Source of the DNA: Candidatus Acetocimmeria pyornia | Lineage (GTDB): Bacteria; Bacillota; Sulfobacillia; UBA3575 | Assembly: GCA_004367365.1 (NCBI GenBank) | Contig: SESX01000006.1 | Span: 1 to 35,106, forward strand | Direction of reading: 5' to 3' | Length of the DNA: 35,106 nt | In this document: positions 164 through 16,904 of the stretch, in pieces | Layout of the letters: each line of letters begins with the position of its first letter | Numbering within the stretch: position 1 is the first letter of the stretch | Notes under the pieces: model-generated | Database searches by the model: none | The model's input: only the letters and a program-made list of their open reading frames with translations | What the model was told of the DNA's origin: nothing | Position numbers and translations under genes: made by a program

Positions 164-454
164 TGGCGGGACTATACCTACATCGAGGACATCATCGCCA
201 GCGTCCGCGCCGCCATCGACTACGACCCCACCCCCTACGAAGTCTTCAACCTGGGGAACTCCCAAACGGTGGAACTCCGCGAACTGATCCGCTTCCTGGG
301 AGAGACCCTGGGCAAAAAGGCCGTCATCGACCACCAGCCCCTTCCGCCCGGGGATGTGCCCCAAACCTGGGCGGACATCCAAAAAGCCAGCCGCCTGCTC
401 GGTTTCCGGCCCCGCACCCCCATCACCGAAGGTCTGGCCCGCTTCGTGGCCTAG
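164..454 (+). pseudogene. C-terminal fragment of NAD-dependent epimerase (UDP-glucuronate 4-epimerase-like)
   Basis: In-frame WRDYTYIEDIIASVRAAIDYDPTPYEVFNLGNSQTVELRELIRFLGETLGKKAVIDHQPLPPGDVPQTWADIQKASRLLGFRPRTPITEGLARFVA*. N-terminal Rossmann half is absent; sequence abuts the transposase fragment. Confidence 0.8.
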
Positions 455-588
455 CTGCGCATGTCCGAGCAGCCCGCCCCGGTTGATCAACAAACCGCAG
501 CGCTCCACGGCAATTGTCTTGCAGAGTACTCTACATTCGTCACCATTCTTTTGACTAGGGTCTCAATAGTAAACACCACTCTTTTTCC

Positions 589-1815
589 TTAGTCAAATTC
601 CAAGAAGAATCTTTGTACGTCAATTCCACTTATCGGTTTCTTGTTCTGTATATACTTTGATCTAATATTCGCCATACCGTCCTGCAAATGACGTGAAGTA
701 ACACCGTGCTTGATTGACTGATCCGCTTCAATAAAAGCTACAATTTCATCACAGACCTTAAGTAGCTTACCGTCAACCGGTGAATACTCATCATGATTGT
801 AGTCATTAATATTTTCATTCTCTGTCAATGGCCTTGGGGCACCATTCGCCATTATTCGGTCTGCAAACTCAGTACCGTTGCCTAGCAAGTACTTTAAATG
901 ATTAACAACGTATTCGGGAAATTTCGGGTAAAGTTCCGACTCGCAAACTTCTACTTCGATCTTTTTTATGATCGCTGGCAACTGGGCGGTGGCACGTTTA
1001 ACTGGCGATATAATATCTCTTACCACAGCCTCAGGAAGATCGTGAAACAGTCCAGCATAAAAGTTGTTGCAAAGCCTACTACTACACGCATCAAGTTGCC
1101 TTGACAAGAAAACCATAAGGCAAGCCACAAGCATGCAGTGTCCTAAAACTGTCGTCTTGGGTATTCTGGGTGTTTGACTCCAGCGGGTTTGAAATCGCAA
1201 CTGCTCAATCAAGCAAATACCCTCAAAGAAACTCCCCTCCAGCAACATTTGTTGAACTCCCTCAAGATCTTTGTACCTTTCAACTCCTTGTCGTACCTCC
1301 TTTTCTAGATCACTAAGTTGGGGAAAACTACTATTTGCAGCCTTGATAATCTCAAACTCTCTCAAGGTCGAAAACTTATGCGCAGCTCGAAGTATTCTCA
1401 GGTTAATATTAGATTCATCGTCATCGCTGTTCATGAACCGTTCAAACTCAGACAATAGTTCTTTGTCTTCAATGATTGGGTGATACTGTTCAACCACCCA
1501 CCCGTTTAATTCTTTAAAAGCATCATGATACTCGGTCTTTATCTTTCTAATTACTGGCGCTTTAATATCTGACAAAGCAACATTTTTTAATAGTGCAAAT
1601 AGTGAACCGTAGACCAGGTATTCCCAGTTGATTTCTTCCCCTTTTTCCTCTTCCAACTTGGCAAAGAAGTAGGTAAGAACTGATTTGAAGGCTTGCTTGT
1701 CCATTTCAGTAAGGTCAACCGATCGGATCCTATCATTCCATCGCTGGATTGAGTGCGCCTCAAACAGCCTCAAGGCAAGCAATCTGGAAAACAAACCCAA
1801 ACCCACTCCATTCAT
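589..1815 (-). CDS. HD-domain phosphohydrolase (YfbR-like/HD superfamily)
   Basis: 408-aa ORF; HD-type motifs VLGHCMLVACLMVFLS...FYAGLFHDLPEAVVRDIISPVKR and a later D (LLKVCDEIVAFIEAD). Confidence 0.75.
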   Translation of the reverse strand: MNGVGLGLFSRLLALRLFEAHSIQRWNDRIRSVDLTEMDKQAFKSVLTYFFAKLEEEKGEEINWEYLVYGSLFALLKNVALSDIKAPVIRKIKTEYHDAFKELNGWVVEQYHPIIEDKELLSEFERFMNSDDDESNINLRILRAAHKFSTLREFEIIKAANSSFPQLSDLEKEVRQGVERYKDLEGVQQMLLEGSFFEGICLIEQLRFQTRWSQTPRIPKTTVLGHCMLVACLMVFLSRQLDACSSRLCNNFYAGLFHDLPEAVVRDIISPVKRATAQLPAIIKKIEVEVCESELYPKFPEYVVNHLKYLLGNGTEFADRIMANGAPRPLTENENINDYNHDEYSPVDGKLLKVCDEIVAFIEADQSIKHGVTSRHLQDGMANIRSKYIQNKKPISGIDVQRFFLEFD

Positions 1816-1971
1816 TATACTTGGTGAGAGTGTAACCGATACCTCACGGGCAAGTATTGCAGGCCAAATACTCCTCGGCGCAACCCATTTCTATTATATA
1901 CTTGTATATACTTGCTCACCGTGCCCTAAGCCCGCACAGCATTAGCCGGACTCATCACGGCATCCCCTGGC

Positions 1972-2600
1972 CTATTTCCATTCACGCAACACTTCGTAAT
2001 AGACCTGTTTGGTTTTCGAAAGCATTTGCTGTAGGGTAAAATACTTGTTGAAACGCGCGTGACCGGCCACCCCCATACGGGCGCGCAACTCCGCATCCAA
2101 AAGCAGCCGCCGCAACCGGTCGCGCAACATTTCCGCATCTCCCCTGGCCACCAAAAAGCCGGTTTTTCCCTCTACCACCGCCTCCCGGCTACCGCCGACG
2201 TCGGAGGCGACCACCGGGAGCCCGGCACGCATAGCCCCCACAATGGTGAGGAGGAACCCCTCCCAACGCGAGGCCAGCACAAAAACCTGCGCCCGGGCGA
2301 GCAAGGTGGGCACGTCAGACCGGGTCCCGAGAAACCGCACCTGCGGGGCCAGCCCCAGCTTCTCCGCCGCCTCGCACACCCGCGGCTCCAGCTCTCCTTC
2401 CCCGGCAAACAGCACCTCAAAATCCGCCTCCGTCCCCAACCCGGCCAGCGCCCGGAGCAGCAAAAGCTGGTCTTTCGGTTCGGAAAAGCGGGCGACCATG
2501 ATCAACCGTGCCGGATCACCGTTACCGGGTGCCCGGTACTCATCGGGAAGCTCCGGCACGCCCACCGGCCAGCCGCGCCGCCTCGACCACCACCCGCACA
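1972..2600 (-). pseudogene. C-terminal half of a GT4-family glycosyltransferase (5' truncated)
   Basis: GVPELPDEYRAPGNGDPARLIMVARFSEPKDQLLLLRAL...VRFLGTRSDVPTLLARAQVFVLASRWEGFLLTIVGAMRAGLPVVASDVGGSREAVVEGKTGFLV: typical GT4 C-terminal domain. Upstream coding is in other frames and runs into DUF1848. Confidence 0.8.
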
Positions 2601-2635
2601 TCCCGCACCGGATCGATTCCGCCGCTGCCGCCACC

Positions 2636-3622
2636 TCAGTCCCAGGAAAACGACTCCTGCCTCCAGCCGGCTGTCGCCTGCTCGCCCGGTGCCTCCCACC
2701 TGTGCTCCGCTCCCTTTTTCGATCCCGCAATCAGCAAAGGACTTTCGGGGTTGTGACGCCGGTGGTTCTCAGCACACCTGGACCCGTTGTTGGCGTAGCA
2801 ATAAACACAGGCGTGGAGACAGGTGTCGTACATGCCAATATCCACGCTCTCGTAACAGCCGCATTCCCGCCGGGTCGGCCTCGGCCGATAAGCACTTGCC
2901 CCAACACCGGCCAACGCGGCCAACAAATTTGCGTCTACACAGTGCGCCTTTTTGACCAGGCCACCTACCAAATGGTCGTTGCAGCAGGCATAGACCTCGA
3001 TGCCGTGCCTTGCGGCGATCTCGGCCATGCGGGCCGCCAGCGCCGCCTGCTCCGGTTCCGTCAGTGTCACCGACTCGATACCCGCGCGCCGCAAGGACCG
3101 CAGTCTGCGCTTCACCTTCGGATAGAAGCTGGCAAAGCTGGTATAACAGCAGGTGGTGTAACCCTCAAGCTTCCGGCATAACTCCTCGAAGCGCCTTAGA
3201 TGATAATCCGCACTGGTGCGGTTGGTTACCACGATCGGGTCGTAGCGCCACAACAATCGCCGGGGCGAATACCGTCGAGACAGCCGCCTGAAGGTTTCCA
3301 CGGCGGTTTCGGTGTCCGGCACCCTGGGTTCGAACACCCGGGGCAAACCGGTGATGGTAAACATAAACACCGCCTGATAACCCCTGGCATCCAGCTCGTC
3401 CAAATGGCGCAGGAAGGGACGGTAATCCTTAGACCAAAAAACGAAGCCGATCACCGCCGAAGGAGCCAGCGCCACGCGCACCGCCTTGCGGTTGAAAGGA
3501 TTACAGCTCACCGCCCAGCCGGCCCGCACCCGGTTCATGAACCATTCACCGTAATAGGCGGGAATATCCGTCCGTCTGCTGGCCGAAACAATGCACCGGC
3601 CTTGTGCAAAACGCACTCTCAT
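2636..3622 (-). CDS. DUF1848 family protein (radical-SAM-like, C-terminal CX3CX2C)
   Basis: CIVSASRRTDIPAYYGEWFMNRVRAGWAVSCNPFNRK...VFWSKDYRPFLRHLDEL...CGCYESVDIGMYDTCLHACVYCYANNGS is the DUF1848 signature. ATG at 3622 preceded by GGGGGA; the ORF track extends to a TTG at 3643. Confidence 0.85.
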   Translation of the reverse strand: MRVRFAQGRCIVSASRRTDIPAYYGEWFMNRVRAGWAVSCNPFNRKAVRVALAPSAVIGFVFWSKDYRPFLRHLDELDARGYQAVFMFTITGLPRVFEPRVPDTETAVETFRRLSRRYSPRRLLWRYDPIVVTNRTSADYHLRRFEELCRKLEGYTTCCYTSFASFYPKVKRRLRSLRRAGIESVTLTEPEQAALAARMAEIAARHGIEVYACCNDHLVGGLVKKAHCVDANLLAALAGVGASAYRPRPTRRECGCYESVDIGMYDTCLHACVYCYANNGSRCAENHRRHNPESPLLIAGSKKGAEHRWEAPGEQATAGWRQESFSWD

Positions 3623-3632
3623 TCCCCCGGTA

Positions 3633-5396
3633 TCAACCCTCAAGCCGGTTCGCTTTCAAGAAGGCCTCCACCGTATTGAAGGCGTTGAAGAACAGCGGCG
3701 TCCCGGCGAAAGAGAGCGGGCTGACCGGCCCGATGGTCATAAAAGAATACTGCTTGCTGGCGACATCAAAAGCCGAGTGCGGATCCCGGAACAATTGGTA
3801 AAGATCAAGCGCCGTACCGGATGAGCCGACCAACTGGCGCAGCGCCTGGAACTCCTGTCCCAGACCCAGACCGAACCCGAAGAAGAAAATCCGCAGTTGC
3901 TGGATGATCTCACTGTGGATACTGGAAAGAGTCTGGCTGATGAAAAACCAGCCCAGCCCGTACTTGCGCGTGGTCCGGGCCGCATCCACAAGCACGTCCC
4001 GCACGCTGCGCGCGGCATTGTCCTCCCTGGAGAGTTCCCGCGGTGCCAGCCGGTGCGCCTCGTCGATGACCACCAATGTGTTCAGGCTCTGACCCTCTTT
4101 GAAAAAATACTCCGCGGCCTGAGTCAGCCCATCCAGCAAACGTTTGATGACCAGCGATTGGATCCGGTCGTTCCAGAAAAGTCCTTGCGCTTGCTCCTTG
4201 GAAAGATCGATCACTAAAACCGGCCGGCTCGGACTGTCGGGATTTAAGAGCCAGGCCAAAGCTCTGCTGACGGACCGGGCACCTGACCGATCCTCGCGAA
4301 AGAGTTCCGCTACCGGCCCCCAGTAATCCCGGAAAAACTCGTCCGGATCGGCTTCCTCCCAGGTCGCGTGGAAGCGCAGCCGCGGGGACTCCGACCGGTA
4401 GAACTGCTTTTGGACCCGTTCATCGCCTAAGAGCGCCCACGCCTTGTTGAAGGATTCCCGACGGCTGAGGTCGCTTAGTTTCACGCGTGCCTTCTCGAGC
4501 TTGTGCGATAGGATGCGGCAGGCAAGCTCCCGGTTCTCCGACTTAGGTATGGTCAAGCGTTCAAAAAAGGGTGATTCATACAATATCTGCTCGAAGAGCT
4601 CCCACCGGTCGAGGACCAGGTTGCGGACGGTGAGAACAAAGGTCTGCTTGCCGAGCCGTTTCAGGACGCCGCCCAGCGGCAGGGCGAACTCGCCAGCGGC
4701 GCTGCCCCCGCGCACATCCCTGGCAAATTCGCCCTGCGGGTCGATGACCAGGAGCGCCATCTTGGGATAGCGCGCATAGGCCAGCAGGATCATCTTGGCC
4801 AGGACCGATTTGCCCGACCCCGTCTTACCGAAGACGCCCAGGTGGTAGGCCTCACCGGCACCTTCCGGTCCCCGGTCGAAGTGCTTGAACCAGAGGGGGA
4901 GCTTGGGCTTGGATCCGTAAACGTGGCCCAGATAGAAAAGCTGGTCGCGGTAGGGCTGCAGGATTTCGCCCAAGACCTCATCGGTGACGAGGTGGATAGC
5001 CGTCCCCGTGGACGGAACCGTGCCGAGGATGCTCGGCTCGTATCCGGCCGGACCACCCTGCCGGAACACGGCGCTGATGACCATTTTGCCCTGGTGGGTG
5101 TCCTGCCGCTCACTGACGGCATCCACGCGGCCACGCTGGCGAATCAGGCTGCGCATAGTCGGATCCTCGTGCCACACATTGCGCAGCTGAACCTCAGTGA
5201 TTTGGCCTAAAGCGTAGTGTGCCGCCGCGTCTTGCAGGAAGCGAAAGAGAGCCAGTTCGCCTACCAGCTTGCGCGTTACGGCGGTGCCGAGAATGTCCAG
5301 AGCCAGCTCCGATGTAGACGAGGGCGAACCGATAACCCCCAGCCTCTCCGTGCGATCGATAAGCAGGTCGATGTCGTATCCGGCGCGCATTCTCAT
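3633..5396 (-). CDS. herA: HerA-type FtsK/HerA ATPase (DUF87, HAS-barrel)
   Basis: Walker A GVFGKTGSGKSVLAKM; Walker B LNTLVVIDEAHRLAP; ARTTRKYGLGWFFISQTLSSIHSEIIQQLRIFFFGFGLG typical of HerA. ATGA overlap with the upstream NurA gene. Confidence 0.9.
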   Translation of the reverse strand: MRMRAGYDIDLLIDRTERLGVIGSPSSTSELALDILGTAVTRKLVGELALFRFLQDAAAHYALGQITEVQLRNVWHEDPTMRSLIRQRGRVDAVSERQDTHQGKMVISAVFRQGGPAGYEPSILGTVPSTGTAIHLVTDEVLGEILQPYRDQLFYLGHVYGSKPKLPLWFKHFDRGPEGAGEAYHLGVFGKTGSGKSVLAKMILLAYARYPKMALLVIDPQGEFARDVRGGSAAGEFALPLGGVLKRLGKQTFVLTVRNLVLDRWELFEQILYESPFFERLTIPKSENRELACRILSHKLEKARVKLSDLSRRESFNKAWALLGDERVQKQFYRSESPRLRFHATWEEADPDEFFRDYWGPVAELFREDRSGARSVSRALAWLLNPDSPSRPVLVIDLSKEQAQGLFWNDRIQSLVIKRLLDGLTQAAEYFFKEGQSLNTLVVIDEAHRLAPRELSREDNAARSVRDVLVDAARTTRKYGLGWFFISQTLSSIHSEIIQQLRIFFFGFGLGLGQEFQALRQLVGSSGTALDLYQLFRDPHSAFDVASKQYSFMTIGPVSPLSFAGTPLFFNAFNTVEAFLKANRLEG

Positions 5397-6544
5397 CCCC
5401 CCGATTCAGTGCGGTAGCCGTGCATGGCGAGAAACACTTCCCCGATGTCCCCCTCGTACTCAGCGGCGATGCGCTGCGTCGTCACCTGGCGAAAAGCAGG
5501 AAGCGCACGGGTCACCGCCTTTACCGTCCGGTCGGCCAGGAAGAGGGGGTAGGGCTCCAGCATGGACGGCGTGGCGCACTGGTGCTTCAGCCCCTGGATG
5601 ACGACGGCGAGACGGTGGGAATTCAAAACCACCTCCCGGCTCGCTTCCACCCGTAGGGCAGGCAGCCATTTATGCGGTTTGTAATAAAAAACATAGACCT
5701 GTCCAAGCCCCTCCACGACGGCCTCCGCCAGTTCTTCGACCCGCCGGCGGGAAGCCCCGGTAAGCCGGTTCGCGTTGATATGCCACGGCTGCCCCGGTTG
5801 CTCGAGCGGTTGGGGCCTGGTCAGTTCGCCCGGCCGCAGCAGCAGGCTCAAAAGACCCCGGTCATCATGCGCGCCGGACCAGCCGGCCAGCCGGCCGATC
5901 TCCCGCCGGGTGGAATACTTGGGCAGGGCGATGAACTGCCGGTCCGACCGGGCCGGCCGCAGGATCACCCGGTAGGCCTCCAGATAGGCGTCGCAACGGG
6001 CGAGGAATTCCTGGGAACAGCGGAGCGCGGGTACGTGCGGCGCCGCGTTGATGGCCTGGTTGAAGTAAATGATGGGCAGTGTCACGGTGCCGTCCAACAT
6101 CACCAGGTCGTGCGGCGCCCGGGTAGCCAACAGGAGCTCGCGTCCCAGCATCACCGCACGCAGCACGGTGGCCGTTTTCTCGTGATGCACCTCCGCCGCC
6201 ACGAAGGTCATGTGGTGCGGCTGCTCCCAGTACCGCTTCTCGGACGGCGGCGTCAAGCCCTCGACCGCCACCGCCGCGGCGGCCGCCAGGTCCGCCGTAA
6301 GCAAGCGCTCGATCGCATAAGAACCATCGGTCGCACAGGTAGTGGGCACTTGACCGGGGTACCCCAGCTCAGATTCGTGCTGCACCAGACCCAGGGCCAG
6401 CAGCTTTTGGCGGTAGTCGGCCCGGAATTCCTGCGCCTGCCGCAAGGCGCCCAGAAGAAGTTCGCCCGCCCGGCCGGCCTCACGAAGCACATCTTCCACC
6501 AGCACCGTCGGCAGGTCTGCAAAAGGCGTGTTCTTCTCGGTCAT
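5393..6544 (-). CDS. nurA: NurA-domain 5'-3' nuclease
   Basis: Motifs ATDGSYAIERL, MLDGTVTLPIIYFNQAINA, YYKPHKWLPALRVEASREV and YPLFLADRTVKAV match the NurA layout. Adjacent to HerA with ATGA overlap. ATG at 6544 chosen over the upstream start at 6568 because it gives an ATGA overlap with the DUF4338 stop. Confidence 0.88.
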   Translation of the reverse strand: MTEKNTPFADLPTVLVEDVLREAGRAGELLLGALRQAQEFRADYRQKLLALGLVQHESELGYPGQVPTTCATDGSYAIERLLTADLAAAAAVAVEGLTPPSEKRYWEQPHHMTFVAAEVHHEKTATVLRAVMLGRELLLATRAPHDLVMLDGTVTLPIIYFNQAINAAPHVPALRCSQEFLARCDAYLEAYRVILRPARSDRQFIALPKYSTRREIGRLAGWSGAHDDRGLLSLLLRPGELTRPQPLEQPGQPWHINANRLTGASRRRVEELAEAVVEGLGQVYVFYYKPHKWLPALRVEASREVVLNSHRLAVVIQGLKHQCATPSMLEPYPLFLADRTVKAVTRALPAFRQVTTQRIAAEYEGDIGEVFLAMHGYRTESGG

Positions 6545-7680
6545 TCGGCGGCCCCCTTTCTCCCCCAAAGGCGCCAGGACTCGGGGTCGAAATCCCGGTA
6601 GCGCCGGTCACGCGCGGCCCGGGGTAGAAGCCAGCGCGCGCGGAAAAAGCGGAACAGGTCCTCCACGGACTGATCCCACCAGCGGACTTGTGCGTGCTCC
6701 CCCTGGAGGAACTCCCGCGCGTTTTCGGCCAGGGGAACAACGAAAACCTCCCGGCGGACGCCATGGTAGAGCAGATCCGGTGACAGGCCGAGACCCGCCA
6801 GACACTTCCTGACAATCTCGCGGCGGTTGCGAAAACCGCTCCCCCACTTTTCGTTCTTGGCCGTGGGCCGGCAGAACTCCGCTGCATACTGGGCAATGGC
6901 CTGATACAGTCCGTTGAAGAAGTGGAATTCCCCGGAACCGCGGGTGAAACCCACGCGGTGGTAGAGTAGACGGCCGTCATAGGCCACCCGGTTGTAAAGA
7001 GACGACCTTCCCAGAGCCGAAGTGGTCGTCACCAGCACCAGCCGGCCGTCGAGCGCCCGGCCCCGGATAACCGACTGACGCTTGGCGCCATACTTTTGCC
7101 TGAAAGTCCCTCGAACCTCGTTACTGGCTACCAGCATGGCCACCAACTTGCCGCAGAGGAGAAACGAATACGGCGGCACGGCCCCGAGCACAAACGCGTC
7201 CATCACGTGGTGCAGGCGCTCTTTGCGCGCCGCCACATCCCAGCCGATCCACCGGTCCCGCGCCCCCAGACCGAAAACCGGGTCGCCCAAACCAAAAATC
7301 CCGATCAGCTTGTCGTTTTGCTCATCGACCACCAGAAAGCGGAGCCGCCGCCCGTACCCGCTCGATACCGGAACGCTCCAGTGGAGCGCCGCGTAGCGGA
7401 AAAGAAGTTCCGCCTCCGTTCCCGCCCGCACCGCCACGAGCCGGGGTCGGATGCGCTCCGGCACCACCTCGCCGCCGGCCGCGATCCACCGGAGGAGGCG
7501 ATCCTCATGGCGCTCCAGGCGTGAGCGGGCGCGCGCCACCCGCTCGGCCACCGCCGCAGCGTGGAGGCGGCGTATTTGCTCCTTATCAAAAGCGGGGGGA
7601 AAAATGCGTTGGCCTTCGACGATGAAGCCCTGGTCCTCCAGTGACGCGATGATCGCTTTTCTCAGTTCTGCCGAAGTCAT
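6541..7680 (-). CDS. DUF4338-family protein (DruA-like, divergent)
   Basis: LRFLVVDEQNDKLIGIFGLGDPVFGLGARDRWIGWDVAARKERLHHVMDAFVLGAVPPYSFLLCGKLVAMLVASNEVRGTFRQKYG...LVLVTTTSALGRSSLYNRV resembles the DUF4338 core (LRYxV...GFxxxxWxxxxRDxxIGWxxxxRxxxLxxVxxxxRFLIxP). AGGAGG upstream of ATG. Confidence 0.7.
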   Translation of the reverse strand: MTSAELRKAIIASLEDQGFIVEGQRIFPPAFDKEQIRRLHAAAVAERVARARSRLERHEDRLLRWIAAGGEVVPERIRPRLVAVRAGTEAELLFRYAALHWSVPVSSGYGRRLRFLVVDEQNDKLIGIFGLGDPVFGLGARDRWIGWDVAARKERLHHVMDAFVLGAVPPYSFLLCGKLVAMLVASNEVRGTFRQKYGAKRQSVIRGRALDGRLVLVTTTSALGRSSLYNRVAYDGRLLYHRVGFTRGSGEFHFFNGLYQAIAQYAAEFCRPTAKNEKWGSGFRNRREIVRKCLAGLGLSPDLLYHGVRREVFVVPLAENAREFLQGEHAQVRWWDQSVEDLFRFFRARWLLPRAARDRRYRDFDPESWRLWGRKGAAE

Positions 7681-7748
7681 GGTATCCTCCTGCGGCAGCT
7701 GCCGGCCAGCCTTGCCTCTGGCGCATTAGATTTAATGCTGTCCACCTG

Positions 7749-8306
7749 CTAATGGGCTTCACGGGGAGCCGGTAAATCGTGCGCGTCTCCCGCCAACCAG
7801 CCCCATTCAACTAAACTACGGTACGCTTTACTTACTGTTGTGGGCGAAAACTTATCCCCTTTGGCTGCCAACACCTCATCCAGCACCTTTTGTTCACTGA
7901 CGCTACCGTATACCTCACGCAATGCCGTGGCGATAAAATGCACGGTGGCGTACAATTCCAGATTGATCGGAGCAAACCCGCCCAACCGTTGCAACACCTC
8001 TTCGATCTTTTCCCGATGCGCGGCCAGACCTTCCGCGTGCGCCGCCACAACCTTTTCACAGGCCAGACCGGGCTCAAATCGCACTCCGTCACCACCGACT
8101 TTGATAATCCCCTTGGCAATCGCCTCGCCTAATTCCTCGGCCACCTCGATGCTGTATGGTCCATAAATATGCATGCGAAAACTGGCCCGCACCGGCACAC
8201 CCGCCTCCTGGCAAAAGTATACCAGCTTTTGCAGAGCCTTCCTACCCTTTATCGGCACCCGCCTCGCCAAATAAGCTATAAGGACTTCCAATTCCATCAA
8301 GTCCAC
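7749..8306 (-). CDS. YwgA-like / Panacea(SocA)-like protein
   Basis: IKGRKALQKLVYFCQEAGVPVRASFRMHIYGPYSIEVAEELGEAIAKGII: LQKLVY...YGPYS motif. Located directly downstream of an HD-hydrolase remnant, the same pairing as ywfO-ywgA in Bacillus. Confidence 0.65.
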   Translation of the reverse strand: MDLMELEVLIAYLARRVPIKGRKALQKLVYFCQEAGVPVRASFRMHIYGPYSIEVAEELGEAIAKGIIKVGGDGVRFEPGLACEKVVAAHAEGLAAHREKIEEVLQRLGGFAPINLELYATVHFIATALREVYGSVSEQKVLDEVLAAKGDKFSPTTVSKAYRSLVEWGWLAGDAHDLPAPREAH

Positions 8307-9367
8307 CCCTGCTCGATATTATTCACCTCGGACTTTATCTGCAGATACTGTTCATTACACCAGCGTCCTGCCTCCTTCTTTTCCCGACTGACATAAAATT
8401 GGACCAAATTGACGTTTTTCCGCGATAATAGCCGCAATGGAAGCGAACAGTCAAAGATGGAATGGCACTGTGTGGGTACGTGTTTGTCCTGCACCATAAT
8501 ACTGACAAAGCGCCGGTCTTCCCGATCATCCTTTCCTTCCTCCTGTCTCCTCAGGCCAAAAAACGGGTTGGTAGGTAATTTTCGCGCCTTGTCGTCAACA
8601 TAAGCGGTAAATTGGTCATTGCCGTATTCTGCCTCAAACCGTTTCTTCATTTCCGAAAAGATCATATAAATGGCCAGACCGGTGTGCTGCGGCAGGCTGA
8701 CAAAAGCCTCCGAAAGATGATCCCGGTCATAAATCCGTCGCGCCCACTCATTCTTTTGCCGCATTTCCCGGATGGCGACCCACACCGTACAGTCATCCAG
8801 GAAGAGATAATCTTCCAGCCGGTCCAAACCGCCAGGCCAACCCCCGGACTGTCCAGCCGTACCCGCCGTTTCGCTGGTCGGCACCACGGTGACGGTATCC
8901 AATATCCGCTCCAAGTCGTACTTGCCGTACCGCACCCCGCAGTAATGCGAGTCCCGAAGCAGGTAATCCAGCTTGTCCGCGTCTATCTCCCCATCTAATG
9001 ATGTTTCCCAGAAAAACCCGGTCCCTTCCCAAAAAACCCTTGCCAATTAGAGCTATAACTTCTTCTCTTATGTCGGGGAAATACTTCTGAATAACCGGCG
9101 CATCCTTTCCCATTCCGGTTTATCAAAATGATTCCGCACCAAACCCCGCTTGTACAGCGCATCCATCATGCGGCCAGCTAAATGCATCACTCCCAAACTG
9201 TGTTCAAACCGCGTATGGGTAGCGCCGGGATAAACCAGGCAGGTCAATGCCAGTTAACGGATATCCCGCAGGCGCTGAAAGAACTCGTGGCGGACAATAG
9301 TCGCCTCACCGGCGCTCAGCTCGATCATACCGTGGATGGGATCCCTGATTTTTACCACCGGCTCCAC
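8297..9367 (-). pseudogene. YwfO-like HD superfamily dNTPase/phosphohydrolase, degraded
   Basis: [75 protein letters not shown] (in-frame TAA at 9254-9256), frame change near 9070-9110, then [15 protein letters not shown], another frame change, then LDGEIDADKLDYLLRDSHYCGVRYGKYDLERILDTV. The HD-dyad segment is missing. Confidence 0.85.
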
Positions 9368-9401
9368 TGCACAGGTCCTCCTCGTAATCAACCTCCGCCC
9401 T

Positions 9402-9929
9402 CTATTTTCGCGACAAAGCATACAGGTCCTCCGCCGGAGATTCCCGCACGTCGCTAACGTCCTTATTCCCGGGATCCACCCGTTCCGGCGAAAAGGTCAG
9501 GAAAAGTCCCGCCCCGCTTTCTCCAATGCCGGCCACACCAGTTCACCGGTCGTGCCCGGATAGGTAGTGCTCTCCAGGAACCAACTGCCCCTTTTGCGGG
9601 TGGTTCCCCACCTCGGAGACCGCCGCCATAACATAGGAAAGATCCGGATCCTTGGTCTTCCGCAAAGGGGTTGGTACGCAAATGCTGACTGCTTCCACCT
9701 CGGCCAGCGCGGCGTTACCGGTACCCGGCCGGATTCTGCCGTCTCTAACGGCCTCGGCCACTGCCGCGTGCGGCACATCAATACATAAAGACACACCGTC
9801 CAGCAGTTGTCCGATCTTCTGGGCATCTCGGCCGATCCCGTAAACCGTATACCCACACCGGACTATTCTCAGGGCCAGAGGCAATCCTACATACCCCAGC
9901 CCTAAAACGGCTGTTTTGGTTTGACCCAT
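9402..9929 (-). pseudogene. UDP-N-acetyl-D-glucosamine 6-dehydrogenase (WbpA/TviB-like) N-terminal remnant, two frameshifts
   Basis: MGQTKTAVLGLGYVGLPLALRIVRCGYTVYGIGRD...VSICVPTPLRKTKDPDLSYVMAA, then in a second frame LESTTYPGTTGELVWPALEKAGRDFS, then in a third frame FLTFSPERVDPGNKDVSDVRESPAEDLYALSRK*. Confidence 0.85.
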
Positions 9930-10109
9930 TTGTTGTTCCCCCCAACGATCTCCCTAACCCGGGAACTATCCGGTTTGCGCTGTCCGTTGGCCTTTACTTT
10001 TTCGATAATCTCCCGGTACGGTTCCTCATACAGTGAAACGACCGTTGGCAAGCTGAAGCGTTCCTCCATCCGCCGGTGGGCGGCGGCGCCCAGGCGGCGG
10101 TGACCGACG
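9902..10109 (-). pseudogene. Extreme C-terminal fragment of a GT4 glycosyltransferase
   Basis: Reverse strand [71 protein letters not shown]; matches the usual tail of GT4 enzymes. Upstream sequence switches to a + strand fragment. Confidence 0.6.
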
Positions 10110-10253
10110 GCCTCGGCCTGGAGTTCGAAAACTGGCGGTTCAACCTGCGCCCGCCGAACACCGAGCCCCTCATCCGGCTGAACGTGGAGTCCCCGGGGGG
10201 ATGCGGCGCTGGTGGCCCGGAAAACGCGCGAAATCCTGGCCAGCCGCGGCTGA
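10098..10253 (+). pseudogene. C-terminal fragment of phosphomannomutase/phosphoglucomutase
   Basis: [31 protein letters not shown] then, after a frameshift in [28 protein letters not shown]. This is the ManB/AlgC C-terminal phosphate-binding signature (DGL...WRFNLRPSNTEPLLRLNVE). Confidence 0.85.
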
Positions 10254-10265
10254 TCATTTTGTCCA

Positions 10266-11507
10266 TCAAAGCGCTTCTTTGTTCACCCGCTGACTGTCCA
10301 CCACACTCTTGATCAAGTCGGCGTATAACGCCAGCGCACTCTCCCTCGAAAAGGTGCTTTTATGCGCCGTCCGTGCCCGCTTTCCGCGCCGGACCACCTC
10401 GTCCGGCTGTTTGCTGGCAGCTTGAATAATCTCCGTCACCTCGGCGCTGTTTTGGGCCACCCACCCGCATTTCCACTGCCTTACCACCGCGGCGAGATCA
10501 TCATTCTCAGAGGCAAGCGCCAGAATCGCCCGGCCGGCGGCCAGAATCGAGTATGTTTTGGAGGGTACGGCCAAGCCGGCCGCCTTCGGTTCCAAAGCAA
10601 CCACGCAAATATCTGCGGCGCAAAGCATTGTGTTCAGCGTTTCCGCCTCTTGGTAAGGCAAAAACAGCACGTTGTCCAACCGCTTCTGCTCAGCCTGCTT
10701 CTCCAGGAAGAAACGCTTTTCACCCTCACCAACGAATACGAACTTGATATTCCGCCCCTTCAGTTCGGCCGCCGATTCTATCAACCATTCAAGATTATGC
10801 AGGATGCCCATGTTTCCGGCATAAAGAACCACCAGCGCGTCCCCCAGCTTATGAGTTTCACGGAACGAGTTCTGCCGGGGGAGGGGCTCGATCTCGCCTA
10901 AGGACCAGTTGGGTATCACGTAAATCTTCTCTTGCGGCACTCTTTTGTGCTTCCGCAGATGCTCGGCCATTCGCGGCCCTAAAACCACAACCGCATCGGC
11001 AAACCTAAAGATAAGCCGGTTAATGATCTCCCATAGCCCTGTAACCAGACCCTTTTTCAACCGACCGGTGCGAATCAAAATGTCCGGATGAATATCGTGC
11101 AACACACAAACATACCGCGCCCCCCTGAAACGCTTAACCCATGCTCCCAGTAACCCTACAAACGGGGGATTGGAAAGCGTAAGCACCACAGCGTACTTTT
11201 GATTTCGACTTTGACGGCGTACCGTCCCAAAAGCCGCAAGCAGGAACCCCAAGTAACCCCGGATTCTCTGTCGCATCCCCAGCCGACCTTTAACGCCCCC
11301 GGTCGCCACCCGACGCACAGTCAAATTCGGCTGCTCTTCGTAGGCCGGAGCGTCCGGAGCATCAGCGGTGTAACTGGGAAACCCGCACACCACGTCGATC
11401 TGGAAACCTCTCTCCGCCAAGCCTTCGCACAAAGAGGCCAGCAATTGCCCCGAGGCACATACGTCCGGCGCATAATACTGGTTCACGACTAGTAATTTCA
11501 TTCCCAA
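10266..11507 (-). CDS. GT4-family glycosyltransferase (WcaI/WbuB-like)
   Basis: [44 protein letters not shown]...[21 protein letters not shown]. Confidence 0.88.
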
Positions 11508-11587
11508 CCCAATCCTTGGTTTACAAGTATTTCTTTCCTCTGGCTTGTTTTCGACATTAAGCTTTGGAAGATATATCCTCGGCCCAT

Positions 11588-12757
11588 TTAGTACTTCTGC
11601 CTTTTCAGTGCTTCTTTATACAACCAGATCATCTGGCCGGCAATCTTAGCCCAGGTAAATTTTTCGTTCACCAGCCGCCGGCCGTTACTGCCCATCTCTT
11701 GCCGCAACTGCGGTTCACGCAGTAGCTTTTCCAACGCCGCAGCCAATTCCCCTACCTCCGGTTCGATGATCAACCCGGCTCCGGCCGCGGCCACCTCGGG
11801 GAAATGGCATTGGCGGGTGATGACTACCGGAAGACCGCAGGCCATCGCTTCCAAAATAGCGATACTAAAACCTTCGGAATATGAAGGAAGCACGAAAACA
11901 TCCGCCCCACCCAAAGCCGCCAGTTTTTCGCGCCCGGTCAACATCCCGGCAAAGACCACTTTGCCCAAAGCACCTTCCGCCTCCAAGATTTTCGCCACCT
12001 CGGCCCGGTAGCCCTCGCTATCCGGCCCCACCACCAGCAAACAAAGGTCGTCTCGCTCCCTGGCCACCTTGCCAAAAGCCCGGGCCAAAATGTCAAGCCC
12101 CTTTTTCGGGTGCAGGCGGCCTAGAAACAGCACTACCTGTTTCCCGACAAGTTGAGGGTAAAGCCGCTCCAGTTCCCGACGCGCAGGCAGCAGTTGAAAC
12201 TCCTGCGGGTTGATCCCGTTGGGAGTCATAAAGACTTCGTTATCCACCCCGAAAGCCCGGATATGCTTAACCTCCTCGGCGGTGATCGCGTGCAGCGCGG
12301 CCGCTTTTTGCAAAATACGCCGCTGGATCAGTGCCGAATATACCTTCTTCTTCAATGCTTTATGGTTTATCGCCCACGGCTCCAACTCCCCGTGAACGGT
12401 CACCACGTACGGCTTTTTTGCTTTTCTTGCCGCCCGGTAAGCCGCAAGATGCGGATGGCTCCACAGTTCATGGATATGCACCAGATCAAACTTACCCACC
12501 TCTTGTGCCACCGCCCGGGCCAAACCCGGTGAATAGCCGGACCACCAGCGAGCCAAAAAACCTTCTCTAAAAAGCTGCAAATTCACTCCTTTAGGCCGGG
12601 CAATCTCCGCCTCGCCCCCTCTTCGCACCGGGGCAAAAAGGGACACTTCCACGCCCTTTTCAACCAGGGCTTCGGTCAGCTCATGTACCACCTTTGTCGG
12701 CCCGCCCCATTCAGGTGCAAGACTGATTACCACGTGTAGTATCTTCATTTTTTTCAC
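11588..12757 (-). CDS. GT4-family glycosyltransferase
   Basis: MKILHVVISLAPEWGGPTKVVHELTEALVEKGVEV...VLFLGRLHPKKGLDILARAF...VFVLPSYSEGFSIAILEAMACGLPVVITRQ. Confidence 0.92.
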   Translation of the reverse strand: MKKMKILHVVISLAPEWGGPTKVVHELTEALVEKGVEVSLFAPVRRGGEAEIARPKGVNLQLFREGFLARWWSGYSPGLARAVAQEVGKFDLVHIHELWSHPHLAAYRAARKAKKPYVVTVHGELEPWAINHKALKKKVYSALIQRRILQKAAALHAITAEEVKHIRAFGVDNEVFMTPNGINPQEFQLLPARRELERLYPQLVGKQVVLFLGRLHPKKGLDILARAFGKVARERDDLCLLVVGPDSEGYRAEVAKILEAEGALGKVVFAGMLTGREKLAALGGADVFVLPSYSEGFSIAILEAMACGLPVVITRQCHFPEVAAAGAGLIIEPEVGELAAALEKLLREPQLRQEMGSNGRRLVNEKFTWAKIAGQMIWLYKEALKRQKY

Positions 12758-12839
12758 CCCGCCTGTTTCCCCTGAACCGGCTTTGGCGCACCCTCATTCC
12801 CTGGTAAACCAGTTTTTCATGGCCTAGCGAATCTACCCA

Positions 12840-14135
12840 CTACGCTCCACCGCGACCTACACCCTGATATCGAAACCCCAGTTCGATTAGCTTACGGCCG
12901 TCTAACGCATTGCGGCCATCGAAGATCAACCGGGGCGAAACCATAATCTGAACTACCTGCTCCCACGGCAACTCGCAAAATTCAGGCCATTCGGTAACCA
13001 GGACGGCGGCCTGCACCCCTTGCAAGGCTTCCAGGGCCGACGTCCGGAGATCAATCTCCCCTGGTAACAAGGGGTGTCCGTTCCCGGCCGCCACCTGGGG
13101 GTCGTAGGCCCGCACCTCGGCGCCCTCCTCGATCAGCAGCCGCCCGATGTCCAGGGCGGGAGCCTCCCGCAGGTCGTCGGTGCCGGGCTTGAAGGTCAGT
13201 CCGAGCAAGGCCACCTTTACTCCTTTGACCGTCCCGAAGACCCGGCGCAGGGCCTGCAGGGGCAGCAACCGCTGGCGGTTGTTGACGTTGATCACCGCCC
13301 GGAGCAGTTCGAAATTGTAGCCGTTGACCGCCGAGCAGAACTCAAGCGCCCGCACATCCTTGGGAAAGCACGAACCTCCGTACCCCAACCCGGCCCGCAG
13401 GAAACTCGGCCCGATACGCGGGTCAAGTCCGATCCCGTAAGCAACCTCGTCAATATCGGCCCCCACCCGGGCGCACAGACCGGCGACCTCGTTGATGAAC
13501 GAAATTTTGGTGGCCAGAAAGGCATTGGCCGCGTACTTGATCATTTCGGCACTCGTGATCCCAGTAACCAGAACGGGAGCTTTGATCCCGGCGAACATCT
13601 TTTTTACCAGGTCGATGGCCTCTTCGTCCTCTCCGCCGATCACGATCCGGTCGGGATGGAACCAATCGCGGACCGCTTGTCCCTCCCGCAAAAACTCCGG
13701 ATTGGCCACGTACCGTAGCCCGGTACCGGCTAATTCTTCGTCCACCAGGCGCCGGCCGGTCCCCGGCGGCACCGTACTTTTCATCACCAAAACCGCCGGC
13801 CCGGGCCGGCGCTGCCGGACCCACTGGATGGCCGCCCGGACCTGGGAAAGATCGGTCCCGCCGTACGGCCGGGAGGGTGTGCCCACCGCCACCAGGATGA
13901 TTTCCCCGAGGGGCACCGTCACCTCTTGGGGGTGCTGAAACCGAAGCCGGCCTGCGGCCAGGCCCGAAGAAAGCAAGCCCGGCAGCTCGGGCTCGTGAAA
14001 AGGGCAGATCCCCTGCTGAAAGGCAGCGACCTTTTCCCGATCCACATCCACGCCCAGCACCTCGTGACCACTATGCGCCAGGGCCACCGCCGCCACCGCC
14101 CCTACATATCCCAGACCCACCACGGTAATGTTCAT
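12840..14135 (-). CDS. ugd: UDP-glucose 6-dehydrogenase family protein
   Basis: MNITVVGLGYVGAVAAVALAHSGHEVLGVDVDREKV...KSTVPPGTGRRLVDEEL...GLGYGGSCFPKDVRAL...LLGLTFKPGTDDLREAPAL. Confidence 0.93.
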   Translation of the reverse strand: MNITVVGLGYVGAVAAVALAHSGHEVLGVDVDREKVAAFQQGICPFHEPELPGLLSSGLAAGRLRFQHPQEVTVPLGEIILVAVGTPSRPYGGTDLSQVRAAIQWVRQRRPGPAVLVMKSTVPPGTGRRLVDEELAGTGLRYVANPEFLREGQAVRDWFHPDRIVIGGEDEEAIDLVKKMFAGIKAPVLVTGITSAEMIKYAANAFLATKISFINEVAGLCARVGADIDEVAYGIGLDPRIGPSFLRAGLGYGGSCFPKDVRALEFCSAVNGYNFELLRAVINVNNRQRLLPLQALRRVFGTVKGVKVALLGLTFKPGTDDLREAPALDIGRLLIEEGAEVRAYDPQVAAGNGHPLLPGEIDLRTSALEALQGVQAAVLVTEWPEFCELPWEQVVQIMVSPRLIFDGRNALDGRKLIELGFRYQGVGRGGA

Positions 14136-14162
14136 CCTGCTTCATCATCCCCCTTATTCCAG

Positions 14163-15302
14163 TCACCCGAAAGATCCAACCGCCTCCAAAAAGACCTTGG
14201 CCGAACGCTCGATGCCGAACTCCCGACAGGCATGTTCGCTGATGGCCTCCCGCCGCGCGCGGATCTTTCCGAGCTGCTCCTTGGTTTCCCGAATCAGCAG
14301 CGCAAGCTTTCCGACATTATGCGGATCAAACAGCGCGCCGTTCCAACCCTCCTCAATAAGGTCATACGCCGCTCCGGCACGATCCGAACAAAGCACGTAC
14401 AGCCCGCCGGCCAAAGCTTCGTTGACTACCAGCCCCCACACCTCCTCGAAAGAAGGCATGAGCAATACATCGGAAAGGGCGTAGTATTTCGGAAGCCCGT
14501 CCTGCTGGTGGAAGCCTTCAAAGTAGACGTTCTTTAACTCCTGCTCCTGGCAGAAGCACCTAAGCTCTTTTTCCTGTGGCCCGCTACCGACAATCAGTAG
14601 ACCGATCTCGGGATCATTCAGTTCACCAAGCGCTTTGAGCACCTGGAAGAGCCCCTTTCGCTTGACTAATTGACCGACGTAAAGCAGCAGGAGTTTGGGG
14701 TAGGCGGCGCGCTCCTCTTGAAGAATCTTACTCTGGGCAAGCTTTTTTGTCTGTTCCCTGAACCAGTCCATATCTACCGTGTTAACCCCGACGTAGATAT
14801 GCCCCTCCGGAGCACCCATATGTACCAGATATTCGGCCGCTTTCGTCCCGTAAGCGATATATCGGTCGGCCCCTTTAATAATGACTCGCTTCATTCGACC
14901 GACAAGCCCGCCAGTCGTGCCCACACTCAGCAAAGTGGTCCCGTTCCAGAGGATGTAGTTTTTCTTGAAAAACTTGCAATACAGCAGCGCTTGCCAATAG
15001 GCCGGCGCGTCATACCCCGAGGTAATGATAATATCAGGCTTGTACTGACGCAACGCCCGCCACAGACCCCGGTTCAGGTGAAGCGGCAACTCCCTGCTGC
15101 GGATGAACCTATGAAACCCGGGCAATATCTGGTAATCGAACTTGATCTGCTCTTTCGCCACCCGCCACTCACGATTGGCCTCTTTCTCCGCCAGAGCAAC
15201 GACCTTAAAATCAAAATCCGCCACTTGGTGAAGATAATTCCAAAGAGGAATTCGGTATGGAGAAATGATATTGGTGATGAATAATACCTTCGTCTCTTTC
15301 AT
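14163..15302 (-). CDS. GT4-family glycosyltransferase
   Basis: LLLLYVGQLVKRKGLFQVLKALGEL...LLIVGSGPQEKEL...LSDVLLMPSFEEVWGLVVNEALAGGLYVLCSDRAGA. Confidence 0.9.
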   Translation of the reverse strand: MKETKVLFITNIISPYRIPLWNYLHQVADFDFKVVALAEKEANREWRVAKEQIKFDYQILPGFHRFIRSRELPLHLNRGLWRALRQYKPDIIITSGYDAPAYWQALLYCKFFKKNYILWNGTTLLSVGTTGGLVGRMKRVIIKGADRYIAYGTKAAEYLVHMGAPEGHIYVGVNTVDMDWFREQTKKLAQSKILQEERAAYPKLLLLYVGQLVKRKGLFQVLKALGELNDPEIGLLIVGSGPQEKELRCFCQEQELKNVYFEGFHQQDGLPKYYALSDVLLMPSFEEVWGLVVNEALAGGLYVLCSDRAGAAYDLIEEGWNGALFDPHNVGKLALLIRETKEQLGKIRARREAISEHACREFGIERSAKVFLEAVGSFG

Positions 15303-16027
15303 TTTTTCACGGCCTTAACAACCAAATCCCCGCACAAAAGAGCGGGCCACCAGTTCCGAAAAGGAGCAAGAAAACCGCTACCGCTCCTTTTTTCGATTTT
15401 AAAACCCTGGGATTCAAACAGCCAGCAAAACTTCTCCATCGTGAAATAGTGAATATGTCCTCCATCCCAGCCAATCTCTTCCCAATTGTGCGGCGAACTG
15501 GTGGCCGGTAGTTTCCCTAACAATAATGAAATTCGATACTTTAGATAGGCAATATTCGGAACCTGCGCGATGACGTAGCCGCCCGGCTTGAGCACTCGGT
15601 GCGCCTCTTTTACCAGGGAGAAAACGTCATAGACATGCTCAATGACCGCAATACAAGTGATAGCATCAAAATAACCGTCTGGAAAAGGGAGGCGCTCATC
15701 CGCATTGCCTTCGACAAAGCTGAATTTCGACATCCCGGCCGGACAGTGCTCTTTGACTTTTTGTTCTGCCTCCCGTAGACGGGAAGGAGCTACATCTAGG
15801 CCATAAAGCTCCTCGAACTTACCCCCAAGCCTTCTCAGCAGATAACCTTCTCCGCAACCGATGTCCAAAATCCTGCCCCCCCCTCGGCCAACAAGCTGCG
15901 CGGCGGCTGTATACCGATCCCAATCGTACTTTTTCAAGAGCTTTCGCAGCCCCCAAAACTGCCGTTGAGGAACATTTACCAGCTTCTTCTCTCCGTATTG
16001 CTTTTCATAGAGCTTTTTGTAATTCAT
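15299..16027 (-). CDS. Class I SAM-dependent methyltransferase
   Basis: GGGRILDIGCGEGYLLRRLG...LYGLDVAPSRL...FDAITCIAVIEHVYDVFSLVKEAHRVLKPGGYVIAQVPN. Start overlaps the next gene's... the stop of this ORF overlaps the 14163-15302 start. Confidence 0.9.
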   Translation of the reverse strand: MNYKKLYEKQYGEKKLVNVPQRQFWGLRKLLKKYDWDRYTAAAQLVGRGGGRILDIGCGEGYLLRRLGGKFEELYGLDVAPSRLREAEQKVKEHCPAGMSKFSFVEGNADERLPFPDGYFDAITCIAVIEHVYDVFSLVKEAHRVLKPGGYVIAQVPNIAYLKYRISLLLGKLPATSSPHNWEEIGWDGGHIHYFTMEKFCWLFESQGFKIEKRSGSGFLAPFRNWWPALLCGDLVVKAVKK

Positions 16028-16034
16028 CGGCAGC

Positions 16035-16904
16035 TCACTTTCGGTCGAGATTTTTCCTAAGCATCACAATCTTTCTAATTGTCCTTAAAGAAACCGCTTC
16101 CCTTCGCAGAAGCAGCCAGGGAAGTTTTAATACTACGACAACACATGCTCCTAAAGTGTAATGAAGCGCAAATTTTTTAACTCCAGCCCAATTCCAAATA
16201 AGAACCTTCCAGAGTACCGCCACCGGCACAAGAAACAATGGATATCGTCTAATTACTGTATAAAGCTCGTTCCGACACCCGTAAAACATAAAGAGCTTAT
16301 TGTTGCGATTGATGGGAACTCGCTCGTGATAGATAACAGCCTTGGGATAGCAAAGAATAGAATAACCTGCTTCAATAACCCGCAAAGCTAAATCGCCTTC
16401 TTCGGCCTGACGAAAAAAATCAGAAGGAAAGTAACCTGCCTTGCTTAAAACCTCTTTTCTAATTGCACAAGCACCTCCGCTAAAATGATAAGTATAGTAT
16501 TCTCTGACATTGGCTGGCCTATTTTCTTCCGGAGCCAAAACATGGCAAGCAATGATCCCCAAGTCCGGCTCTTTCTGAAACCGTTCCACACAAAGCTTCA
16601 ATGTGGCAGGAGAAAGCCAAGCGTCATCATCCAATGAGAAGATGATATCCCCAGAACAATTAGCCAACGCCACATTGCGACCTTCGGGACAACCAAGGTT
16701 TCTGTGCAATCGTATGATTTGCGCCTCCGGGTAGGCCTCTTTAATAGTCCCAACAGTGTCATCAAAAGACGCAGAATCTACAACTATGACTTCAACAGGG
16801 CGATAGGGTTGTTCAAAGACCGATTCAATTGCCCTGAGCACATATCGACGCCGGTTCCAGGTGACAATTGCCACACTAATCAGCGGATGCTGCATTTTCG
16901 TCAT
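16035..16904 (-). CDS. GT2-family glycosyltransferase
   Basis: ISVAIVTWNRRRYVLRAIESVFEQPYRPVEVIVVDSASFDDTVGTIKEAYPEAQIIRLHRNLGCPEGRNVAL...IIFSLDDDAWL. Confidence 0.92.
   Translation of the reverse strand: MTKMQHPLISVAIVTWNRRRYVLRAIESVFEQPYRPVEVIVVDSASFDDTVGTIKEAYPEAQIIRLHRNLGCPEGRNVALANCSGDIIFSLDDDAWLSPATLKLCVERFQKEPDLGIIACHVLAPEENRPANVREYYTYHFSGGACAIRKEVLSKAGYFPSDFFRQAEEGDLALRVIEAGYSILCYPKAVIYHERVPINRNNKLFMFYGCRNELYTVIRRYPLFLVPVAVLWKVLIWNWAGVKKFALHYTLGACVVVVLKLPWLLLRREAVSLRTIRKIVMLRKNLDRK

Follow-up and report, generated by a model that had tools for sequence, protein, structure and literature searches.

We have analyzed a stretch of DNA from Candidatus Acetocimmeria pyornia (assembly GCA_004367365.1, contig SESX01000006.1, positions 1 to 35,106), called here the window, which means all of its 35,106 nt. 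It contains a cassette of three genes, druA, nurA and herA, which code for a DUF4338 protein (DruA), a nuclease of the NurA family and a HerA-type ATPase. A DUF1848 gene follows. Their coordinates are given in Table 1. The initial annotation of this DNA described four minus-strand genes joined by two ATGA overlaps and a 10-nt gap, and all of these are found where it placed them. The stop codon of druA (TGA, 6541-6543) and the ATG start of nurA (6544) form the first overlap (6541-6544). The end of nurA at 5393 and the herA ATG at 5396 form the second one (5393-5396). The herA gene ends at 3633, and the DUF1848 gene may start with an ATG at 3622, leaving the 10-nt gap, or with a TTG at 3643, in which case there is an 11-nt overlap. 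Pfam agrees with the four families that had been assigned, DUF4338, NurA, HerA and DUF1848, and the CX3CX2C motif attributed to the DUF1848 protein is read as CLHACVYC. The cassette has a GC content of 0.60-0.66 and a GC skew near 0, while its flanks mostly have lower GC and a skew of about -0.2. This contrast is compatible with a separate origin of the cassette, it does not prove it.

Table 1. Location of the three cassette genes, their predicted functional motifs and the adjacent features in the window.
Feature	Coordinates	Strand	Description
druA	6541-7680	-	First core gene; DUF4338/DruA protein of 379 aa
nurA	5393-6544	-	Second core gene; RNase H-like nuclease of the NurA family, 383 aa
herA	3633-5396	-	Third core gene; ATPase of the HerA/FtsK superfamily, 587 aa
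NurA DGS motif, D73-G74-S75	6320-6328	-	Predicted metal-binding catalytic Asp; 35 homologues all keep D73 and G74
HerA Walker A, GKTGSGKS, residues 190-197	4806-4829	-	GKTGSGK conserved in all 21 homologues, S197 in nearly all
HerA Walker B, D445-E446 (IDEAH)	4059-4064	-	DEA invariant in 21 homologues
AGGAGG 5' of druA	7686-7691	-	Ribosome-binding-like, by sequence reading
DUF1848 gene	2636-3643	-	Radical-SAM-like CX3CX2C; adjacent passenger outside the module
DarG-C-terminal/Panacea-like gene	7749-8306	-	Upstream neighbour outside the module

The same three genes are found together in many other genomes. A NurA alignment search of 84,980 species gave 55 loci, to which two viral contigs and one locus from a phylum match (L015) were added. 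Two of the resulting 58 loci, L067 and L070, are contigs of one genome. When the window NurA was used to search its phylum, 7 of 399 genomes and 7 of 268 genera were positive, with DruA and HerA adjoining. Clustering of the flanking open reading frames (ORFs) places NurA in 55 loci, HerA in 52 and DruA in 50; the next cluster is present in only 6. A tblastn recount over the 58 loci, which also catches frames lost in ORF calling, finds NurA in 58, HerA in 55 and DruA in 52. The genes are on one strand in the order DruA-NurA-HerA in nearly all loci, L051 and L052 have NurA-HerA-DruA. Junctions of 30 nt or less are found in 43 of the 47 pairable cases for DruA-NurA and in 49 of 50 for NurA-HerA, approximate values based on the nearest possible starts. 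The closest relative of the window cassette, L129, has HerA, NurA and DruA proteins which are 79%, 59% and 62% identical to those of the window. As about 50 loci from distant organisms have these three genes in the same order, the arrangement goes beyond chance: We are nearly certain that druA-nurA-herA is a three-gene module, which looks co-transcribed. The possibility raised in the initial annotation, that the DruA-NurA-HerA neighbourhood might not extend beyond this genome, does not agree with these loci.

Two loci show peculiarities. In Thermovorax subterraneus (L054:9977-11126), NurA is frameshifted into two overlapping frames, flanked by intact DruA and HerA. In L026 (4947-7988), on a contig shared with L011, a 1013-aa MkoA/MkoC-like protein is coded directly 3' of the cassette.

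The DUF1848 gene (Pfam PF08902, E=4.7e-92) was originally taken as the fourth gene of the module, a claim that we abandon. By tblastn it appears in one of the 57 other loci, L015, and it is absent at L129, where it was among the queries. On the other hand, 62 of 200 phylum genomes (31%) carry it independently of the cassette. A four-gene DUF4338-NurA-HerA-DUF1848 module might be suggested by the 10-nt gap in the window and by L015, where DUF1848 lies about 3 kb from DruA. There, the gene adjoins a UG25-type reverse transcriptase (RT), in line with its listing as RT-associated in PADLOC. We have rejected this four-gene module, given that DUF1848 is missing from 56 of the 57 other loci and from L129 and is common elsewhere in the phylum; its probability is practically negligible.

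The genes upstream of druA do not belong to the module either. The DarG-C/Panacea-like protein reaches 46 bits with the NCBIfam DarG model (cut-off 250) and E=1.4e-14 with PADLOC DarG, and its gene is found near only one other cassette, that of L015. An HD-type phosphohydrolase gene at 8297-9250 appears to be broken over at least two frames (its C-terminal part occupies 8297-9046). Together with the Panacea/DarG-C-like gene that follows, it is probably a decayed HD-Panacea pair, assembly errors being the alternative. These HD and Panacea genes were rejected as parts of the module, they recur near the L015 cassette only. L015 contains an island (201-16086) with an HD-associated gene, a Panacea/DarG-C-like gene, a DrmD-like helicase, DUF1848 and RT_UG25, and with DruA-NurA at the contig end. 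Three flank families are common to this island and the window.

NurA matches Pfam PF09376 (E=7.9e-6, 26.0 bits, cut-off 21). Its AlphaFold2 (AF2) model has a predicted local distance difference test (pLDDT) value of 92.1, and the top 10 fold matches in the PDB are all NurA proteins, with E between 1.9e-11 and 1.2e-6; the first one is the HerA-NurA of T. kodakarensis. All 35 homologues compared have D73, E136 and D151. The NurA fold and its catalytic residues are intact. In T. kodakarensis NurA, the D49A mutation abolishes nuclease activity (PMC12977600), and D73 of the window protein would be the residue equivalent to D49.

HerA matches DUF87 (E=8.8e-11). In profile comparisons, its best PDB matches are other HerA-family ATPases, several of them from anti-phage complexes, while its similarity to the anti-phage HerAs of PADLOC and NCBIfam is weak and partial. 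Scores with the equivalogs of housekeeping HerA are very low: 18.6 bits for NF040819 (cut-off 970) and 20 for NF040937 (cut-off 800). Judged by these scores, the window HerA lies outside the housekeeping HerA family.

Classical NurA-HerA is described as an end-resection machine (PMC9960219, PMC8910471), and many carriers of the cassette come from hot environments, judging by the names of the records. The cassette might accordingly be a horizontally acquired repair operon, in which NurA-HerA processes broken ends of host DNA, with DruA as an accessory in repair. Its distribution does not favor this: It is present in 7 of the 399 phylum genomes and in 2 of the 41 nearest relatives, the window's own genome included. 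Besides, HerA is far under the housekeeping cut-off, DruA has been swapped between lineages, as described below, and outside this cassette DruA is known as part of Druantia, a defence system. Even in archaea, a role of HerA-NurA in resection has been called into question by recent biochemistry (PMC12977600). We consider a repair operon unlikely. The same low score (18.6 against 970 bits) and the presence in so few genomes of the phylum also separate this NurA-HerA from a vertically inherited housekeeping pair, which the initial annotation had considered as an objection.

DruA is clearly recognized by Pfam (PF14236, E=1.9e-118) and by the PADLOC DruA model PDLC00002 (E=7e-117). It is the DruA component of Druantia I (DruA-DruB-DruC-DruD-DruE). 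Three DruAs found in plasmids near a DruE-type helicase are 40-42% identical to the cassette DruA, and two of these loci have unnamed genes in the DruB-D position. The cassette differs from Druantia type I, where DruB-DruE belong, in having NurA-HerA in their place. There is no DruE in the window, and the next genes after DruA are NurA and HerA, so DruB, DruC and DruD are not encountered. In the DruA tree, the cassette proteins branch separately from the DruAs of Druantia I. Among 11 phylum genomes with a full-length DruA, six have a window-type NurA-HerA, two have the distant type described below, one has Druantia I and two have DruA alone.

As DruA is a Druantia I protein, the cassette might be a variant of Druantia, in which DruA is still partnered with a DruE supplied from elsewhere in the genome. 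The window's genome does contain a DruE, a protein of 1612 aa (PADLOC DruE1, E=1.3e-186), on contig C13 (L081:5730-14472). In L018, DruE is located 17 nt upstream of DruA, the sole adjacent DruE among the neighbours probed. This locus (L018:934-10092) has DruE-DruA-NurA-HerA in a row and is possibly a hybrid of Druantia and the cassette. Of 33 carrier genomes, however, only 7 have a DruE-like match (E<=1e-20), and DruE was undetected in Methylococcus, Tepidimonas and Thermogemmatispora, all of which carry the full cassette. The C13 DruE overlaps a gene for 1310 aa to which neither Pfam nor PADLOC gives a match, and having this partner of its own it looks separate from the cassette: The pair resembles a two-gene Druantia close to type III, whose DruH would be divergent. 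A Druantia with a missing DruE is disfavored by the count of 7 in 33, and the separate branch of the cassette DruAs also speaks against a variant of this kind, which we regard as highly improbable.

The distribution of the cassette is patchy. Carriers belong to about 18 phyla, as labelled in the records, and include a Thermoplasmata archaeon. Sequence comparison shows that the cassette has spread horizontally between distant bacteria and archaea. In the 36 complete loci, protein distances correlate well for NurA-HerA (0.89) and poorly for DruA-NurA (0.36) and DruA-HerA (0.28). In the DruA tree, loci of the two main NurA-HerA clades are intermingled, and well-supported branches force at least three changes of clade B, as calculated by a quick method. 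DruA trees conflict with the NurA and HerA trees, which indicates that partners have been exchanged. L021 and L072, with DruA 83% identical and NurA and HerA only 36% and 40% identical, are on sequence identity a clear recent case.

A second, distant NurA-HerA lineage is also found beside DruA. L108 (5864-10069) has NurA-HerA-DruA, and L103 (5796-10152) has DruA, a NurA-like protein and HerA. The HerA of this lineage is about 23% identical to the window HerA. Pfam recognizes the L108 NurA and misses the L103 protein, which is related to it. A profile comparison with alignment A4 gave no match to the NurA candidates of L103 and L108, a negative that must be considered insensitive, because Pfam does recognize the L108 protein, to which that of L103 is related. 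Pairings of DruA with NurA-HerA have thus formed or changed repeatedly, an argument for a joint function.

Spread between phyla, together with the presence of the cassette on two predicted viral contigs of IMG/VR (L071 and L072), might suggest a mobile-element module, in which an element that integrates or transposes would rely on DruA and NurA-HerA to process DNA. Some DruA genes are indeed found among transposases, as in a Meiothermus plasmid and in P. putida, where IS66 lies beside DruA. Nevertheless, a NurA query of 72,556 plasmid records found no cassette, only one partial NurA match with 26% identity. No integrase or transposase cluster is shared around the cassettes, and the fold search of the DruA model in the PDB gave no transposase match. 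A mobile-element module is very unlikely. Cargo of plasmids or phages was also rejected: The plasmid records lack the cassette, and the phage search with a DruA query gave distant DUF4338 proteins only, such proteins being found in a few marine phages. The L072 DruA and HerA share 92% and 97% identity with those of a Thermoguttaceae genome (L064), so that this contig may come from a provirus or be host DNA with a wrong label. In a viral fold library, DruA-like folds are found in giant-virus proteins (Faunusvirus, E=2.6e-16, template modelling (TM) score 0.66; Yasminevirus; Dasosvirus) and in some phage proteins.

The genes next to the cassettes include DruE, type I, IIG and III restriction genes, HmaC and RT_UG25. 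The PADLOC E-value alone does not discriminate, housekeeping-like FtsK, FtsH and ABC ATPases also score, so a simple count of PADLOC matches was rejected as a measure of defence. With a threshold of 200 bits, 8 of 30 neighbours match, compared with 0 of 20 random large ORFs (p=0.011). Known systems provide parallels. DUF4297-HerA degrades double-stranded DNA (dsDNA) and protects against phage lambda (PMC11291478). The HerA-NurA of T. kodakarensis cuts both DNA strands, and an antiviral role has been proposed by its authors (PMC12977600). In Thermoproteales, NurA-HerA is found beside CRISPR, with a nurA-csm6-herA cluster (PMC3396285).

We think it probable that druA-nurA-herA is a self-contained, horizontally spread system against invading DNA, in which NurA-HerA degrades DNA under the control of DruA. 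HerA would be a hexameric translocase that pumps dsDNA driven by ATP. A NurA dimer docked on it would cut the DNA fed through, so that invading dsDNA would be degraded. By analogy with related complexes, we infer a HerA6-NurA2 assembly with this activity. DruA would be an exchangeable partner which decides when, or on which DNA, NurA-HerA acts. Its exact task can be suggested only tentatively: It might be a sensor, a target marker or a self-protection factor. A role in defence against phages or other mobile DNA is likely, with moderate support. The initial annotation had proposed a defence or mobile-element module of NurA-HerA with DUF4338. Defence is the likeliest function, and the set corresponds neither to the housekeeping pair nor, in PADLOC 2.0 and the papers searched, to a named system.

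Several observations weigh against this interpretation. The 200-bit threshold was chosen after the data had been seen, and neighbours were picked by size. At E<=1e-20, 13 of 30 neighbours match compared with 4 of 20 random ORFs (p=0.08), a modest enrichment. About half of the loci probed have no known defence gene adjacent to the cassette, the window itself lies in a glycan locus with no obvious defence island, and five loci have NurA-HerA with no DruA nearby. The DruA model (pLDDT 90.6) matches mostly GNAT acetyltransferases in the PDB, and these matches are weak (E 0.019-0.1, TM about 0.25/0.45). The loop after the 159-167 strand, as placed by reading of the model, is PPYSFLLCGKLVA, which departs from the canonical coenzyme A (CoA) loop R/Q-x-x-G-x-G/A: L174, found in 49 of 50 sequences, occupies the R/Q position.

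The weak GNAT matches agree with the GNAT label given to DUF4338 in a published study (PMC10853773). An ordinary acetyltransferase role is made less likely by the lack of the CoA-loop residue. The initial annotation made DruA a recognition or recombination subunit. Both roles are still conjecture, the fold match to GNAT proteins is weak and there is no sign of a recombinase. DruA could also be a portable GNAT-like enzyme or reader of DNA marks that plugs into unrelated motors, either DruE (an SF2/DUF1998 helicase) or HerA-NurA. In its strongest form, DruA would mark host DNA as Mom does and NurA-HerA would degrade unmarked DNA. The marking part is suggested by analogy, and the loop residue stands against an acetyltransferase. 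We consider this proposal unlikely. If marking were true, the cassette would be similar to a restriction-modification system in which both the modifier and the restriction machine are new. A parallel is the GNAT modifier of Mom type fused to a nuclease in jumbo phages (PMC7824862), which likewise combines a GNAT-like protein with a DNA nuclease. It is only an analogy: DruA is at most a putative enzyme and lacks the canonical loop residue.

The probable anti-invader cassette can be compared with other systems. DUF4297-HerA and Sir2-HerA likewise combine an ATPase of the HerA superfamily with a partner, encoded beside it, that cuts DNA or acts as an effector, and the Walker A and B motifs of the cassette HerA are also intact. 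The partner there is DUF4297 or Sir2, while in the cassette it is NurA, according to both Pfam and fold, and a third gene, DruA, is added. Archaeal and Deinococcus HerA-NurA have in common with the cassette the NurA fold, the catalytic acids, the nurA-herA pair and a likely HerA6-NurA2 assembly. The cassette differs in being patchy, in falling below the HerA equivalog cut-off and in its operon with DruA. The Thermoproteales cluster (PMC3396285) also has NurA-HerA with an extra gene at an immunity locus. In that case the gene is csm6 and inheritance is vertical, whereas the cassette has DruA and is horizontally spread.

We know of no PADLOC system with the DruA-NurA-HerA set. In PADLOC 2.0 (2023), no NurA model clearly matches the window NurA (best E=0.018). 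In 5.39 million open-access papers, a set which leaves preprints and most subscription papers outside its scope, DruA, NurA and HerA appear together in one unrelated review only. The available parts of papers which pair DUF4338 or Druantia with HerA do not describe the combination. The remark of the initial annotation that it knew of no named system with this composition agrees with PADLOC 2.0 and the open-access literature, newer DefenseFinder releases being outside this scope.

Other genes in the window should also be mentioned. Directly after DUF1848, a glycosyltransferase (1972-2730) is reduced to its C-terminal half and may mark an insertion edge. An HD_3/YfbR-like protein of 408 aa (589-1815) is coded by a gene with a GC content of about 0.42 between GC-rich stretches, likely another acquired gene.

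In summary, if the proposed role is true, HerA-NurA, long discussed mainly for repair, would gain a widespread and directly testable role outside repair. The Druantia protein DruA would gain a small and tractable partner complex. Caution is also advisable with the automatic annotation "Druantia anti-phage system protein DruA", which is often attached to another system: Of the 11 genomes with a full-length DruA in the phylum sample, 8 have it next to a NurA-HerA-type pair, two of these pairs being distant relatives, and one has it next to DruE.

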